From a marine group bacterium Sva0996 bin134 (GTDB lineage Bacteria; Actinomycetota; Acidimicrobiia; Acidimicrobiales; Bin134), in NCBI GenBank assembly GCA_002239105.1, contig MPNQ01000003.1, forward strand, positions 124,001 through 188,000: DNA of 64,000 nucleotides. The letters run 5' to 3'. Under the pieces are notes generated by a model. It searched no databases and was not told the DNA's origin. It saw only the letters and a list, made by a program, of their open reading frames with translations. Of the stretch, positions 25,180-36,267 are shown one piece after another (the stretch's first letter is position 1; every line of letters starts with the position of its first letter). The position numbers and the translations under genes were made by a program.

Positions 25180-28100
25180 GTGGCACTTTCTAATCATGAG
25201 CGGGTGGGCAAGGCGATGGTCTTGCTGGGTGAAGGGCTGGCGCCATTTGTAGCCCGTGAGTGCGAGGTGGAGTTCGGGGAGGACTGGACCACTGGGGTTC
25301 AGCGGGCCGACTCCCGGAGCGGGGGCCGGGCTCGCAAGGTGAACCCTGTTGATCCCCAGTTCTTGTTGAAGGTGATGTGGGATGAGTGGCAGACCATTTT
25401 CCGCAAGAAATTGGGACGGACGGAGCGCAACTACGTTTCTGAGTTGCAGGATGCCAGAAACAAGTGGGCCCACAACGAGGCCTTCACCGCTGACAGCGCA
25501 TTGCGGGCGATGGACACGGCCAAGCTCTTGCTGGAATCGGTTGGCGCCGGCCCCCATGCCGCGCAAGTGGACAAGCTCTACCAAGAGTTGTTGCGTCAGC
25601 GATTTGAAGAGCAAGCCCGCAAAACGCAGAAGAAAGCGGCAGCGGCTCAGAGCACGGCCCAACAGAAAAGCCTGGCGCAAACCGGTCTGCCCGCATGGCG
25701 GGAAGTGGCGGAGCCCCATGACGATGTGGCCTCGGGCCGATTCCAGCTCGCCGAGTTTGCCGCCGACCTGCATCAGGTGTGGCGAGGCGAGGCCCCAATT
25801 GAGTACGACGACCCCGCTGAGTTCTACCGGCGCACCTATATCACCGAGGGGCTGTCCAGCCTGATTGCAGGAGCGGCCCGCCGGTTCAGTGGAAGCGGCG
25901 GCGACCCTGTCATTCAGCTACAGACCAACTTCGGCGGTGGCAAGACCCACGCCCTGATCGCTCTCTACCACCTGGCAGGAGAAACGCCGGTTACCCAGCT
26001 CAAGGGTGTCGAAGAGCTATTGGCCGGCAACGGATTGGAGCTGCCCAGCGAAGCGATTCGTCGGGCCGTACTGGTCGGACACCAGCTCCTCCCTGGAGAG
26101 ACTTCTGTCAAAGAAGACGGGACCGTGGTCAACACCTTATGGGGAGAGCTGGCCTATCAGCTTGGCGGGGCTGAGGGATACGCCTTGGTGGCCGAAGCCG
26201 ACCGCACCGGCACCAGCCCTGGGGCGGCCCTCACCGACTTGCTCCGGGAATTCTCGCCGTGCCTGGTGCTCATCGACGAGTGGGTGGGCTACGCCCGCCA
26301 GCTCTACGGCGTGTCCGGCCTGCCCGCCGGGTCGTTCGACGCTCATTTCAGTTTCGCCCAGGCCCTTACCGATGCGGCCAACAACACCCCAGGCGCCCTG
26401 CTGGTGGCCACCATCCCGTCATCGCAGATCGAGGTCGGCGGTGAGGGAGGCCAGGCAGCGCTCAAGAGGCTGGAGAACCTGTTCGCCCGGATGCAGGCCA
26501 ACTGGCGCACGGCCACCGCTGAGGAGAGCTTCGAAATCGTCAGAAGGCGGCTGTTCAAGGATCTGGCACCTGAGGCGTCGGCCAATCGGGATGCGGTGGT
26601 GAAGGCCTTCAGCGAGCTGTACCAGAAGCAATCAAGCGAGTTCCCCTCCGAGTGCAAGGAGGGCGACTACCAGCGCCGGATGAAAGCCACATATCCAGTA
26701 CACCCCGAGCTGTTCGACCGGCTGTTCGAAGAATGGTCCGACCTAGAGCGATTCCAGCGCACCCGCGGCGTGTTGCGGTTGATGGCCGAGGTTGTCCACA
26801 GCCTCTGGATCAATGACGACCCCAACTTGTTGATCCTGCCGTCCACCATCCCCATCGACGACAGCAAGGTGTCCGAGGAGCTGCTCCGCCATTTGGAAAG
26901 CGAATGGCGGACAGTGGTGGAAGCCGACGTAGACGGAGACAATGCCCTACCGTTGAAGCTGGACAAGGAGAACCCCAATCTGGGCCGTTTCCTTGCCGCC
27001 CGCAAGGTGGCCCGCACGGTCTACTTCGGATCGGCCCCGTCGCAGCACGCCGCCAACAAGGGGCTCGACGACCGGTCAATAAAGCTCGGCTGCATCCAAC
27101 CGGGCGAGGAACGGCCCGCCATTTTCGGTGACGCCCTCCGCAAACTGTCAGACCAGGCCTCCTACCTCTACCGAGATGGTGCCCGCTATTGGTATGCCCT
27201 CCAAGCCAACGTCAACCGGATCGCCCGAGACCGGGCAGAGGGCCACTTCAACGACGCCGACGTGGATGATGAGATCCGTCGCCGCCTAGATGTAGCCCTC
27301 CAAGGCAACCCAGGCCAGTTCGCAGGCGTTCACAATTGCCCCCGCTCACCCGCCGATGTGCCTGACACCGACGAAGCGCGCCTTGTGGTCTTGGACCCGA
27401 CTTCGCCCCACGACAGCAAGACCGAACAGAGCGAAGCCCTCAAGGTGGCCCAGCAAGCGCTGGTAGAGCGCGCCGGAGGGGCGAGACAGCATCGCAACAT
27501 GCTGGTTTTCTTGGCCGCCGATGTAACCCGCTTGGGCGACCTGCGCCAGGCGGTTCGCAGCCACTTGGCCTGGCAGTCCATTCGAGACGATGCCGAGTCT
27601 TTGAGTCTCGATCCGCCAAATGCCCGCCAAGCTGAGTCGAAAGCGGCAGATGCCGACGAGACGGTGGCGTCGCGGATTCCCGAGACCTACATCTGGGTAC
27701 TGAACCCATCGCTTCCCCCCGACAACCCGACTGGCGAAGTCCGATGGGAGACGGCCCGGGTGACCGCTTCGGGGCCGTTGGCCGAGCGGGTGTCCCACAA
27801 GCTGGTCCACGACGAGTCGCTTATCCCGGCTTATGGCGGCACACGGCTGCGGTGGGAGCTCGACCGGATCCCCCTCTGGAGGGATGACCCAGGTCAGACC
27901 GGCGACAAGAAAGTGGCCATATCGGTCAACCAGCTCTGGAGCGACATCACCCAGTATCTCTACCTGCCCCGTCTTGTTCGACGCTCGGTATTGGAAGACG
28001 CCATCCGCGACGGGGTGCAGTCAACCGTTTGGGCCACCGATGGGATCGCCTACGCCGAAGGACACGATGGAGGGCGCTTTGTCGGCCTCCGAGGTGGCGA

Positions 28101-28524
28101 GATGCTGGCTGCCATCGCCCCCAGCGGCCTAGTGGTCCATCCCGATGCTGCCAACTCCCAGATTGAGGCGGAAATAGCCGCACGGGCGAGAGCAATGGAA
28201 GACGAGGCTGGCGGTACCGTTACTGCCCCCGTCGGAACCGAATCAGAAGAGGATGGGGAAGGGGAGCCTTCCGAACCCGCCGGGCCTAGGTTGCCAACCC
28301 GCTACTACGGCCGGGTCACTCTCGGCTCCGACCGCTGGACTCGAACCGCGGCCGACATCGCCGAGGCCATCGTGAACCAACTCGCCCAAGCCGAAGACGC
28401 CAAAGTCTCCGTCACCATCGAGGTAGAGGCCACCGCCGAAGAAGGCTTCGACGACGGCGTCCAGCGCACCATCACCGAGAACGCCGCCACCTTGAAGTTT
28501 GACGACAGCGACTTCGAAAAATGA
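25180..28524 (+). CDS. DUF499 AAA-type ATPase with N-terminal Swt1/HEPN-like domain
   Basis: Large P-loop ATPase of the COG1483/DUF499 family, third core gene of the island. Residues about 1-120 form a helical domain of the Swt1-HEPN kind, with RNKWAH at 93-98 fitting the R-x4-6-H HEPN active motif. The ATPase part follows: Walker A GGGKT at 252-256 in NFGGGKTHAL, and Walker B LVLIDE with the acidic pair at 366-367. Residues about 480-850 are the helical DUF499 body. The C-terminus is acidic (EESEEDGEGEP-like stretch), then a short basic-acidic tail. Length 1114 aa is normal. GTG 25180 is the best start, though its ribosome site is weak. HEPN domains are mostly RNases, so this protein may hold the toxic effector; that is inference. 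Confidence 0.93.
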   Translation: MALSNHERVGKAMVLLGEGLAPFVARECEVEFGEDWTTGVQRADSRSGGRARKVNPVDPQFLLKVMWDEWQTIFRKKLGRTERNYVSELQDARNKWAHNEAFTADSALRAMDTAKLLLESVGAGPHAAQVDKLYQELLRQRFEEQARKTQKKAAAAQSTAQQKSLAQTGLPAWREVAEPHDDVASGRFQLAEFAADLHQVWRGEAPIEYDDPAEFYRRTYITEGLSSLIAGAARRFSGSGGDPVIQLQTNFGGGKTHALIALYHLAGETPVTQLKGVEELLAGNGLELPSEAIRRAVLVGHQLLPGETSVKEDGTVVNTLWGELAYQLGGAEGYALVAEADRTGTSPGAALTDLLREFSPCLVLIDEWVGYARQLYGVSGLPAGSFDAHFSFAQALTDAANNTPGALLVATIPSSQIEVGGEGGQAALKRLENLFARMQANWRTATAEESFEIVRRRLFKDLAPEASANRDAVVKAFSELYQKQSSEFPSECKEGDYQRRMKATYPVHPELFDRLFEEWSDLERFQRTRGVLRLMAEVVHSLWINDDPNLLILPSTIPIDDSKVSEELLRHLESEWRTVVEADVDGDNALPLKLDKENPNLGRFLAARKVARTVYFGSAPSQHAANKGLDDRSIKLGCIQPGEERPAIFGDALRKLSDQASYLYRDGARYWYALQANVNRIARDRAEGHFNDADVDDEIRRRLDVALQGNPGQFAGVHNCPRSPADVPDTDEARLVVLDPTSPHDSKTEQSEALKVAQQALVERAGGARQHRNMLVFLAADVTRLGDLRQAVRSHLAWQSIRDDAESLSLDPPNARQAESKAADADETVASRIPETYIWVLNPSLPPDNPTGEVRWETARVTASGPLAERVSHKLVHDESLIPAYGGTRLRWELDRIPLWRDDPGQTGDKKVAISVNQLWSDITQYLYLPRLVRRSVLEDAIRDGVQSTVWATDGIAYAEGHDGGRFVGLRGGEMLAAIAPSGLVVHPDAANSQIEAEIAARARAMEDEAGGTVTAPVGTESEEDGEGEPSEPAGPRLPTRYYGRVTLGSDRWTRTAADIAEAIVNQLAQAEDAKVSVTIEVEATAEEGFDDGVQRTITENAATLKFDDSDFEK

Positions 28525-28708: not shown

Positions 28709-28836
28709 CCCCGCCAGATCGACGGCGAGCCTGCTGGCCTTGGTCGCCTGCGAGCACTACGGTCAGGTATCGCTCGGACATGGCGCAGGGCGAAGCGCCA
28801 AACCTGGCCGGGCGAACCGGCTCTCGCGGAGAAAAC

Positions 28837-29991
28837 GTGATCATCCTCGCAAACGGCAAGACGAACGAGGTCTCACAGCGGACCGACGACACGGAGGCCC
28901 TGTGGTTGCGACTCGGCGAGCTGCCCGACGCCACCAGCTGGCAGATGAAGCCGCAGGGCGCGTGCCTGGGCGAGCTGTGCGTGCCGCTGCCGGAGGACAA
29001 GCGTGAAGAGTGGATCGCCGACGCCGACGACTGGGTGTGGTTCTGCTACTCGGAATTTGCTGACATGATCGGCCAGAAGCACGTGCGCGACGGCGACGTG
29101 TGGAGCCTCGGCTCGGTGCCCGAAGTCCGTCGATCCGGGCTGGAGAACGCAATCGCCCCCGACTTCGAGATGACCGACCGCAACGGCAGCACGCTGAGGC
29201 TCTCAGACCTCCGTGGCCACAAGGTGGTGCTGTTCACCTGGTCGTCGTGGTGAGGCTGCCGCTTCAGCCTGCCGGTCTGGCAGGAGTTGTACGAATCCAT
29301 CGGTCCGGACCGGTTCGAGTTGGTCAGCGTGGCCCAGGACTCGGGGGGCCCCACCGCTGTTGACAAGTGGTTCGACCGGGCCTCGCCGACCTACCGGTGC
29401 GTTGTCGACCCGACACACGAGATCAGCTCGCTGTTCGGCTGGGTGAACGTGCCGTCGGCTGCGTGGATCGACGAGAACGGGCAAATCGTTCGCAGCAACG
29501 AAGGGGTCTACCCGGCTGAGACGACCATCGGGTTCGGCCTGGGCAAGGTCCGCATGGGCGATGACTCATTCGCCGAGGCGACCCGCGACTGGATCGAGCG
29601 GGGAGCCGACAGCGAGCACGTCTGGTCGAGCAGGGAACTAGCCGAGCGGCTCAAGCCCGTCGACGACGACAAGCTGCTGGCAGAGGCGACGTTCAAGCTG
29701 GCGCTGCACTTCGAGGCCGTGGGCGACAGCGAGCGTGCCATGAAGCACTTCGCCGCAGCGCAGGAGTTGGCACCCGACAACTGGAACTACCAGCGGCAGG
29801 GTTGGACCCACAAGGGGACGGGCTATGCCTTATTGCAAATGCTGAAGCGGATGAACCACCTGCGCAAGACCACCGACAAGAGCTTCTACGACCCCACGGG
29901 GCTGCCCGGCGAGAACCATCACCGGTTCACCGAGCCCGAGTGGCTGTGGACGCCCGCCGTGCGGCGGCTCAAGCAACTCGTCAGCCGCTAG
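28837..29991 (+). CDS. Predicted selenoprotein: thioredoxin-fold redoxin with in-frame UGA (Sec) and C-terminal TPR-like region
   Basis: AhpC/TlpA-type redoxin. One frame runs from GTG 28837 to 29991 if the UGA at 29251-29253 is read as selenocysteine (Sec139). Upstream of UGA: APDFEMTDRNGSTLRLSDLR and VVLFTWSSW, the classic strand before a thioredoxin active site. Downstream, in the same frame: GCRFSLPVWQELYE, so the active site reads W-Sec-G-C-R, where relatives have W-C-G-C-R. After the redoxin fold (to about residue 235) comes a TPR-like helical pair (LAEATFKLALHFEAVGDSERAMKHFAAAQ). GTG 28837 has GGAGA just upstream; ATG 28780 is an alternative. A SECIS-like hairpin starts 14 nt after the UGA. 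Simple gene calling would split this into two pieces, near 28780-29253 and 29287-29991. No Sec machinery lies in this window. Confidence 0.82.
29251..29284 (+). promoter_or_regulatory. Sec UGA codon and bacterial SECIS-like hairpin
   Basis: UGA at 29251-29253; after 14 nt a 6-bp stem CCUGCC (29268-29273) pairs with GGCAGG (29279-29284) across the 5-nt loop GGUCU (29274-29278). The E. coli fdhF SECIS also has GGUCU in its apical loop, about 18 nt after its UGA; here the distance is 20 nt. Position and loop sequence match what SelB recognises. Confidence 0.78.
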
Positions 29992-32817: not shown

Positions 32818-33825
32818 CTAACCAGTCCCTACCGCGGCGCGTATGGACTCGCGCAGCGACTTCATGGTGGCGAACACCGCAGTGGGCTCGTACCCGCAGT
32901 GGGCCATGCAGTTTTCGCAGCGGGGGTCCCGGCCTCGGCCATAGCTGTCCCAGTCGGTGGTGTCGATCAGCTCTTGATAGGTCTCGGTGTAGCCGTCGGA
33001 CATCAGGTAGCAGGGCCGCTGCCAGCCGAACACCGAATAGCTGGGAATGCCCCAGGCGGTGCACTCGTACTCCACCTTGCCCTCGAGGAAGTCCAAGAAC
33101 AGCGGCGTGTGGTTCAGCCGCCATTTCTTGCGCTTGCCCTCGGAGAAGGCGTCTTGGAAGAGGCGCTTGGTCTGCTCCACCGGCAAGAAGTGCTCCTGGT
33201 CGGGGGCCTTCTCATAGGCGTACCCCGGCGAGATCATCATGGAGTCGACTTCTAGGTCGTCGTTCAAGAAGTCGAGCACGCTGCGCACGTCTTCGGGGCT
33301 GTCGGTGCTGAAGAACGTGCTGTTGGTGGTGACCCGGAACCCCTTGGCCTTGGCCTCGTTGACGGCCTCCACCACCTCGTCGAACACCCCTTCTCGGGCC
33401 ACGGCCAGGTCATGGCGCTCCTGGAGCCCGTCCACGTGGACCACGAAGGAGAAGTAGGGCGACGGCTTGAACTTGTCGATCTTGCGCCGCAGCAGCACTG
33501 CGTTGGTGCACAAGTACACGAACTTCTTGCGCTTGATCAGCTCGTCCACCATCTCGTCGATCTGGGGGTGCAGCAGCGGCTCGCCTCCAGCGATGGACAC
33601 CATCGGGGCACCGCACTCCTCCATGGCGCCTACGGCTTCATCAACGCTGACCCGCTTGCGCAGCACCTCGGTGGGGTATTGGATCTTTCCGCAGCCGGGG
33701 CACTCCAAGTTGCAAGCGAACAGCGGCTCCAGCTCCACGATCAGCGGAAACTTGTCGCGGCGGCGCAGCTTGTTCTTGAACACGTAGGTGCCAACCTTGG
33801 CCGCTTGTCTCAGCGGAATGGGCAT
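32818..33825 (-). CDS. hpnH: Adenosyl-hopene transferase, radical SAM protein HpnH
   Basis: Attaches a 5'-deoxyadenosyl group from SAM to hopene, giving adenosylhopane, the first step to extended C35 hopanoids. The radical-SAM cluster motif CxxxCxxC is at Cys38, Cys42 and Cys45 in FACNLECPGC; the start MPIPLRQAAKVGTYV is characteristic of HpnH. Length 335 aa is typical. It is the last gene of the operon; AGGAGG lies 10 nt before the ATG and 1 nt separates it from the hpnG stop. No other extended-hopanoid genes (such as hpnO) are seen here. Confidence 0.96.
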   Translation of the reverse strand: MPIPLRQAAKVGTYVFKNKLRRRDKFPLIVELEPLFACNLECPGCGKIQYPTEVLRKRVSVDEAVGAMEECGAPMVSIAGGEPLLHPQIDEMVDELIKRKKFVYLCTNAVLLRRKIDKFKPSPYFSFVVHVDGLQERHDLAVAREGVFDEVVEAVNEAKAKGFRVTTNSTFFSTDSPEDVRSVLDFLNDDLEVDSMMISPGYAYEKAPDQEHFLPVEQTKRLFQDAFSEGKRKKWRLNHTPLFLDFLEGKVEYECTAWGIPSYSVFGWQRPCYLMSDGYTETYQELIDTTDWDSYGRGRDPRCENCMAHCGYEPTAVFATMKSLRESIRAAVGTG

Positions 33826-33826
33826 G

Positions 33827-34384
33827 TCAGACGACCTCCTTGGTCAGCACTGGCGTCAACCTACTAATGGTGCGCAGTGCTCTATAGATCCTTGCGGGGG
33901 CGGCCGCGGTTTTGAGTTCGCGGCTGGGGGTGTCGGTCACCACCCGCACTACTGCTGCCGGACCACGATGATGCTCCAACAGCCAAGCCGACTCCATATC
34001 GACCGCTACCGCGCCTCGATCGGCCAGCTCTTGTCGGCGCGGGCCGACGGCCAGCTCGGACACGCTGGCCACCGGGCCGACGTGCACGGTGAATCCGGCT
34101 TCCTCCAGGCCCTTGGCCACCATTTCGGCAAGGGGCAGGCCAATCGGCGCCACATCGTCGGCCGACACCTCGGTGGCCACCACCACATCGCCCGGCTCGA
34201 TGCCCTCAACCACGGCCCCGCCCATGCCGACCACAGCCACTGGCCCGTGATTCGGCTCGACTCGACGGCTCGGCTTGGGCCCCATGCCGGTGCACACCAC
34301 CGTCGCCTCACCATCACCTCGGCGGATGCCCCTTCGTGCCGCTCTAGCCTCCATGGCCAACGGGCAAAACACCATCAGAGTCAC
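33827..34384 (-). CDS. hpnG: Adenosylhopane nucleosidase HpnG (MTAN-like)
   Basis: Predicted to release adenine from adenosylhopane to give ribosylhopane. It resembles the MTA/SAH nucleosidase-purine phosphorylase fold: GMGPKPSRRV and VVGMGGAVVEGIEPGDVVVA carry the Gly-rich phosphate/ribose loops, and AVDMESAWLLEH has the Met-Glu pair that contacts ribose. Length 185 aa is on the short side for the fold but usual for actinobacterial HpnG. The GTG start at 34384 overlaps the shc stop by 4 nt (GTGA), so translation is coupled. The position between shc and hpnH supports the assignment. Confidence 0.88.
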   Translation of the reverse strand: MTLMVFCPLAMEARAARRGIRRGDGEATVVCTGMGPKPSRRVEPNHGPVAVVGMGGAVVEGIEPGDVVVATEVSADDVAPIGLPLAEMVAKGLEEAGFTVHVGPVASVSELAVGPRRQELADRGAVAVDMESAWLLEHHRGPAAVVRVVTDTPSRELKTAAAPARIYRALRTISRLTPVLTKEVV

Positions 34385-36267
34385 CCTTTACCGCTGGTCG
34401 CCCGCACCCAGCGGCCTAGGGCCATCACTGGGAACACCAGGCGGTACAGGTGGTAGCGGATGTAGAAGTCTCCGGAGAAACCGGTCCCGGTGTACCAGGG
34501 CTCGTCCCAGTCGCCGTCAGCGCGCTGATTGGCCACCAACCAAGCCACCCCTCGACGAGCTGCCTCCCCCTCAGCCCGGCCGGCAGCAATCAAGGCCAGC
34601 AGCGCCCACGCAGTCTGCGACGGGGTGGTCTCCCCGCGGCCCCGCCAGTTCTGGTCGGTGTATGAGCGCATGTCCTCGCCCCAGCCGCCGTCGGGGTTCT
34701 GCACCGACTCCAGCCACCGGCAGGCCTTCACCACTCGGTCGTCGTCAGTCGGCACCCCTGCGCTGATGAGTGCCGGGACCGCTGCGCCGGTGCCGTAGAT
34801 GTAGTTGGCCCCCCAACGCCCGAACCAAGATCCGTCGTCCTCCTGCTCGGCGCTCAGCCACTGAACCCCCCGGTCCACTGCCTCCCGGTCCACCGGCAAG
34901 CCCAGCCTGTCGGTGTCCAGCTCGCACAACATCTCCACCACGTGGGCGGTCACGTCAGCCGACGGCGGGTCGATGACCTCACCGAAGTCGCAGAAGGGGA
35001 GTTCGGCCACCAGTGGGGAGCAGTTGTCGGCGTCGAATGCCGCCCAACCGCCGTCAGCGCACTGCATCCCCTGAGCCCACACCACCGCTCGCTCCAGCGC
35101 CTTTTGCACCGGCTTGGCATCGGGATGGCGGATTCGGCGCAGGGCCAGGGCCACCTCGGCCGTGTCATCCAAGTCGGGGTAGTAGTTGTTTTCGAATTCG
35201 AACGCCCACCCGCCGGGGGCCAAATGGGGGCGCTGCTCAGCCCAGTCGCCGACGACATGAACCTCTTGGTCCAGCAGCCAGCGGGCTCCAGCCTCCATCT
35301 GCGAATCGTCTGGCTCCAAGCCAGCGTCGGCTAGGGCCACCAGGGCCAAACAGGTATCCCACACCGGCGATTGGCAGCATTCCAGCCGGCGCATGTCGTC
35401 TTCGACGATGGTCCAGGCGTCGAACCCCTCCAGCCCTTTGGCCAGAATCGGATGCTTCAGGGAATAGCCCCGCACGTACAGGGCCAGCAGGGAGTACACC
35501 CACGGTGGCTGAATGCCACCCCAGCAGCCGTCAGCCTCTTGGCGGGCGACAATCCACTGCTCAGCCCGGCTCAGCGCCCATTGTCGCAACCGCTGGTACG
35601 GACGGTTCTCATAGATATGCAGCGCCCGGTCGATGCGTTGGAATCTCCGGGCCACCGTGCCGTTCCGGGCGAGCTCTCTCTCCGGGGGAAGGGCGCCTGT
35701 GCGGATCTCGTCCAGGCTGATTCCCATGGAGCGCACGGGGCGGTAAGCACCCACGACGGTCAACGCCACCACGGTCTGACGGGCCCAGCAGGCAAAGTCG
35801 TAGATGTTCAACGGCACGTTCTTGGGCAGAAGGACCACCTCAGGGGGCAGGGCGGGGAGGTCTTCCCACCGCCACAGCCCGAACAGCGCCATCCAGACCC
35901 GGGTGAACACCCGGCTGCGCTCCAGGCCGCCCTCGCCGCGGATATACGCAGCCGCCTTGGCCATGTGGTCGGCGTCGACGGGATCGCCGGCATAGCGCAG
36001 CGCCCAGTAGGCCTCAACCGTTACCGACAAGTCGGCCGGACCCTGGAAGTAGGTCGACCAGGTGCCATCAGCCCGTTGGCTGTGGCGAATCCAGTTTGCC
36101 GTCTGTCGGGTGATCTCCGGGTCGGCGATGCCCAAGAACTCCCGCAGAAACAGATCCTCGGCCTCAATGGATACGTTGGTCTCCAGTTCGTCCTTCCACC
36201 ACCCCTTGGCGTCTTGGAGGTTCAAGAGCCGATCGCGGGCCCTGGCCAGGGATTGCTCTGCACTCAT
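34381..36267 (-). CDS. shc: Squalene-hopene cyclase
   Basis: Cyclises squalene to hopene (and hopanol) at the cytoplasmic membrane. The protonating motif DxDD is visible as Asp365-Leu-Asp367-Asp368 (in YYPDLDDTAEVAL). Several QW repeats of the terpene-cyclase barrel are present, such as WLSAEQEDDGSW and WLESVQNPDGGWGED; DWDEPWYTGTGFSGDFYIRYHLY near the end is the typical SHC C-terminus. Length 628 aa is normal. It overlaps the upstream prenyl synthase by 1 nt and hpnG by 4 nt. Confidence 0.97.
   Translation of the reverse strand: MSAEQSLARARDRLLNLQDAKGWWKDELETNVSIEAEDLFLREFLGIADPEITRQTANWIRHSQRADGTWSTYFQGPADLSVTVEAYWALRYAGDPVDADHMAKAAAYIRGEGGLERSRVFTRVWMALFGLWRWEDLPALPPEVVLLPKNVPLNIYDFACWARQTVVALTVVGAYRPVRSMGISLDEIRTGALPPERELARNGTVARRFQRIDRALHIYENRPYQRLRQWALSRAEQWIVARQEADGCWGGIQPPWVYSLLALYVRGYSLKHPILAKGLEGFDAWTIVEDDMRRLECCQSPVWDTCLALVALADAGLEPDDSQMEAGARWLLDQEVHVVGDWAEQRPHLAPGGWAFEFENNYYPDLDDTAEVALALRRIRHPDAKPVQKALERAVVWAQGMQCADGGWAAFDADNCSPLVAELPFCDFGEVIDPPSADVTAHVVEMLCELDTDRLGLPVDREAVDRGVQWLSAEQEDDGSWFGRWGANYIYGTGAAVPALISAGVPTDDDRVVKACRWLESVQNPDGGWGEDMRSYTDQNWRGRGETTPSQTAWALLALIAAGRAEGEAARRGVAWLVANQRADGDWDEPWYTGTGFSGDFYIRYHLYRLVFPVMALGRWVRATSGKG

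Follow-up and report, generated by a model that had tools for sequence, protein, structure and literature searches.

A predicted selenoprotein of the UGC-motif ResA/TlpA-like kind, with a constrained bSECIS-type hairpin, in an uncultured member of the Acidimicrobiia

The gene at 28837-29991 of the window, the 64,000-nucleotide stretch of contig MPNQ01000003.1 (positions 124,001 to 188,000) analysed from the marine group bacterium Sva0996 bin134, almost certainly encodes a selenoprotein with selenocysteine (Sec) at residue 139. The product is a putative thiol-disulfide oxidoreductase of the UGC-motif ResA/TlpA-like kind. The prediction is drawn from sequence comparison: the in-frame UGA is conserved at a position that carries Cys in other homologues, the hairpin behind it is constrained, and part of the Sec machinery is encoded in the genome, the remainder lying at the matching locus of congeners. 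With this gene, uncultured Acidimicrobiia gain a well-supported selenoprotein subfamily, one that standard gene callers would break into two ORFs. The features of the locus are the following.

28825-28836, + strand: Shine-Dalgarno-like GGAG and spacer ahead of the GTG start (GCGGAGAAAAC before GTG)
28837-29991, + strand: predicted selenoprotein gene, 384 aa and TAG stop; orthologues are 73-88% identical through the TGA
28837-29142, + strand: N-terminal domain, about residues 1-102, with C43-x4-C48 invariant in 41 aligned homologues
29143-29610, + strand: ResA/TlpA-type thioredoxin-fold domain, about residues 103-258 (Pfam AhpC-TSA; DsbE/ResA structure matches)
29251-29253, + strand: in-frame UGA at residue 139, predicted to be read as Sec, in W-S-S-W-U-G-C-R; TGA in 34/34 close homologues, Cys in nine
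29257-29259, + strand: Cys141, the U-G-C partner Cys, conserved without exception in 41 aligned homologues
29268-29284, + strand: candidate bSECIS hairpin, stem 29268-29273/29279-29284, loop GGUCU at 29274-29278
29665-29811, + strand: TPR-like helical C-terminal region, residues about 277-325 (weak TPR_2 match; helices in the predicted model)

The initial annotation described two coding pieces in one frame, parted by the UGA at 29251-29253, and the sequence is exactly so: 138 codons from the GTG at 28837, the TGA, 245 further codons and a TAG at 29989-29991, which gives 384 codons over 28837-29988. Comparable CGGAGCAAAC and CCGGAGCAAAT precede the aligned GTG in the orthologues L071 and L074, respectively. 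When the TGA is read as a residue, a single AhpC-TSA/Redoxin domain extends across it (Pfam, E=3.1e-16), whereas the halves taken singly match AhpC-TSA at 7e-6 and 1.5e-4. The dN/dS values between the window gene and five orthologues are 0.14-0.42 upstream of the UGA and 0.17-0.30 downstream, which shows purifying selection on both halves of the gene.

The family is found (E<=1e-30) in 79 of the 198 genomes of the order that were searched, and 69 of these 79 encode a copy containing a single in-frame TGA. The active site was read in 49 fetched homologues, the partial piece L084 being without the site. It is U-G-C in 40 of them and C-G-C, at the same place, in nine. The proposal that the UGA occupies the active-site Cys position of a redoxin is thus borne out by the alignment, in which WUGC stands against WCGC and the Cys of the nine homologues falls exactly at the UGA. 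A second scan, of GTDB species genomes, gave 34 close homologues covering the site (73-88% identity, 34 genomes, mostly labelled Acidimicrobiia or Acidimicrobiaceae). All 34 carry TGA at residue 139, including L130, which has two extra stops and may be frameshifted. About 35 more remote homologues likewise have TGA at this codon, and so does one deltaproteobacterial sequence from the GTDB scan, more distant than the 34. The family offers Sec and Cys versions in a clear series, in which the accessory cysteines are conserved. The UGA copies occur almost always with selA, which is found in 66 of the 69 genomes with a UGA copy and in two of the nine with Cys copies only (Fisher p=1.5e-6, phylogeny ignored). 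The three UGA genomes without selA are the window's own and two others, which are 78% and 83% complete.

The hairpin CCUGCC-GGUCU-GGCAGG begins 14 nt past the UGA and has a folding energy of -10 kcal/mol (shuffle z -3.3). When its 56-nt context is folded as a single sequence the stability is not unusual (z -0.84), and for this hairpin the comparative evidence outweighs single-sequence folding. The apical loop of the E. coli fdhF SECIS is GGUCU. The window hairpin resembles that element in its short stem, its GGUCU apical loop and its position soon after the UGA. On the other hand, conservation in the window family is limited to a 6-bp upper hairpin, and most members have CGUGU or CGGGU loops. 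The loops of 41 UGA homologues are CGUGU (21), CGGGU (11), GGUCU (six) and AGGUU (three), with G in the second place and U in the fifth constant throughout. Consequently, the hairpin first proposed for this site stands in its 6-bp stem, its GGUCU loop and its 14-nt distance from the UGA, but the loop sequence is not a conserved mark of the family (6/41). The published bSECIS model allows a stem of 4-16 bp, a loop of 3-9 nt with G in the first two positions, a loop 16-37 nt after the UGA and a minimum free energy of at most -7.5 kcal/mol (PMC13188914). The window hairpin lies within these limits, with 6 bp, GGUCU, 20 nt from UGA to loop and -10 kcal/mol.

Because the hairpin coincides with codons for a conserved L-P-x-W-Q, the effect of protein conservation was separated out by a null in which synonymous codons are drawn at the set's own usage (2000 draws). 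The full stem is present in 40 of 41 UGA homologues, against a null mean of 15.3 and a maximum of 25, and in two of nine Cys homologues, where 1.7 are expected; this control, like that of the co-occurrence with selA, ignores relatedness. The full stem is also kept in 32 of 35 loci of the GTDB scan. The stem codons are among the least synonymously variable of 89 columns (Leu CTG 40/41, Asp GAC 32/32, Gln CAG 39/40), and synonymous choice is free in the Gly and Cys codons straight after the UGA. With so little variation in the stem, there is little covariation: a single two-sided change, in L054, where CTG..CAG has become TTG..CAA and pairing is kept. These patterns indicate that the hairpin is under synonymous-site constraint. 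The two Cys homologues that retain the full SECIS-type stem are L081 and L082 (both TGC); the stem may be left over from a change of Sec to Cys. selA is present in the genome of L081 (G143) but not in that of L082.

The Sec machinery, for which the initial annotation proposed a search, is recovered in part. The genome contains a tRNA-Sec and a SelD that is itself encoded with a UGA in the active site (GAGUAGK). The assembly yields no selA with the TIGR00474 and PF03841 profiles, and of selB just the final portion, located where the 5.2-kb contig C77 ends. This fragment is spread over two frames and the sequence quality is therefore poor there. The contig is collinear with the corresponding stretch of three congeners, which have an intact selA-selB at that place; in the one read fully, a complete selB and then selA follow directly beyond; selA is present in all five congeners searched. 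As C77 ends inside selB and is collinear with loci where selB and selA follow, the most plausible reading of the missing selA and the bulk of selB is an assembly gap. The best SelB-family match, on contig C58, was rejected as EF-Tu; it sits in a rpoB-rpoC-rpsL-fusA-tuf region.

The absence of selA and of a full selB from the assembly would suit a UGA that is a true stop, one ORF having been split by gene decay or by an assembly error. This reading is already very unlikely from the comparative evidence and deserves hardly any credence: 34 other genomes and about 35 more distant homologues have TGA at the same codon, both halves are under purifying selection, and the hairpin is constrained. UGA readthrough contexts exist in bacteria, and the codon might be read as Trp or Cys by near-cognate suppression and not as Sec. 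Such a decoding is just as improbable in view of a conserved hairpin at SECIS spacing, the genome's tRNA-Sec and Sec-type SelD, and the near-complete co-occurrence of UGA copies with selA. The original judgement that Sec insertion is likelier than a chance stop or decay is accordingly strengthened by the Cys homologues, the constrained hairpin and the presence of tRNA-Sec and SelD. In the selenoprotein reading, SelB with Sec-tRNA would bind the hairpin at 29268-29284 and the ribosome would read the UGA at 29251-29253 as Sec. Sec139 would replace the N-terminal active-site Cys of the thioredoxin fold and would most likely make a selenenylsulfide with Cys141 during the catalytic cycle. Both the actual insertion of Sec and the cycling of the U-C pair are what we infer from the locus.

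The selenoprotein could also be a peroxiredoxin-like Sec peroxidase and not a disulfide oxidoreductase, which is possible but rather unlikely. The AhpC-TSA Pfam match agrees with a peroxidase, and the family was named Prx-like in a 2008 survey (PMC2398784). In the AlphaFold2 model built from 41 homologues (pLDDT 87), the structures that match the central domain (VIA) include PrxQ/Bcp-type peroxiredoxins at Z about 12. The alignment with ResA/DsbE structures, however, is a little closer (Z 14-15), and TlpA reaches about 13; NCBIfam names the family ResA-like, and the residues leading to the Sec, W-S-S-W-U, show no peroxiredoxin PxxxTxxC/U motif. The reaction would thus be disulfide (or possibly peroxide) reduction and, judged by the fold of the model, disulfide reduction is the probable one. 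ResA, CcmG and TlpA oxidoreductases have CxxC and are not known to carry Sec. The central domain of the window protein shares their thioredoxin fold (Z up to 15), whereas the protein differs from them in its U-G-C and in its added N- and C-terminal domains.

The N-terminal domain has a predicted fold (pLDDT 82), no Pfam match and no Foldseek match with E below 0.1. In VIA its top match is 5h3k, with a Z of 7.7 and an rmsd of 4.1 across 94 residues, which lies in the range of chance and was set aside. In the 41 aligned homologues C43 and C48 show the same invariance as the active site, which suggests that the pair may be a second redox centre. That Cys43-x4-Cys48 hands electrons to Sec139/Cys141 in the same chain is a guess and a doubtful one; if true, the protein would be a selenium-dependent reductase with two centres, complete in itself and of a type so far uncharacterised. 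In the C-terminal region, the TPR_2 match (E=0.0034) is below Pfam's cut-off.

This kind of selenoprotein is already described, and the subfamily member is newly added. A 'Prx-like (UGC-containing)' selenoprotein was reported in 2008 in the GOS survey (PMC2398784), and the catalogue of a 2026 review lists a 'UGC-containing TlpA disulfide reductase family protein' (PMC13188914). The window protein resembles these entries, at the level of the family, in combining a Pfam00578/cd02966-type fold (PF00578, E=3.1e-16) with U139-G140-C141. Residues 27-328 match NCBIfam NF041054, WAxxUGC_long, a 'ResA-like WAxxUGC motif-containing protein' (E=1.3e-79), and the architecture and the active site are the same. 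The window protein differs in its C-terminal tail and in having W-S-S-W in place of W-A-x-x: its motif is W-S-S-W-U-G-C and that of the orthologue L070 is W-A-S-W-U-G-C, the model motif being WAxxUGC. Its score of 268 bits does not reach the curated cut-off of 300. Together with the orthologues L071, L072 and L074 it scores 261-269 bits, and these four proteins are therefore not NF041054 equivalogs. Such scores place the window protein in a neighbouring subfamily of the NF041054 kind.

The same genome contains a paralogous second UGA gene of the family (WUGCA; G000:C1:37791-38813, L027:3791-4813), which is common to three of five congeners at 82-90% identity. Orthologues of the window gene (74-85% identity) are present in other families of the order, none was found in the five congeners searched, and its flanks have nothing in common with those of five orthologues, giving no functional hint. 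This distribution makes horizontal transfer or repeated loss possible. No plasmid match for the window gene was found. Upstream, 25180-28524 encodes a large protein with Swt1-like HEPN and DUF499 domains. Downstream, on the - strand, 32818-36267 carries genes for a Radical SAM/DUF3463 (HpnH-like) protein and a squalene-hopene cyclase, which suggests synthesis of hopanoids.
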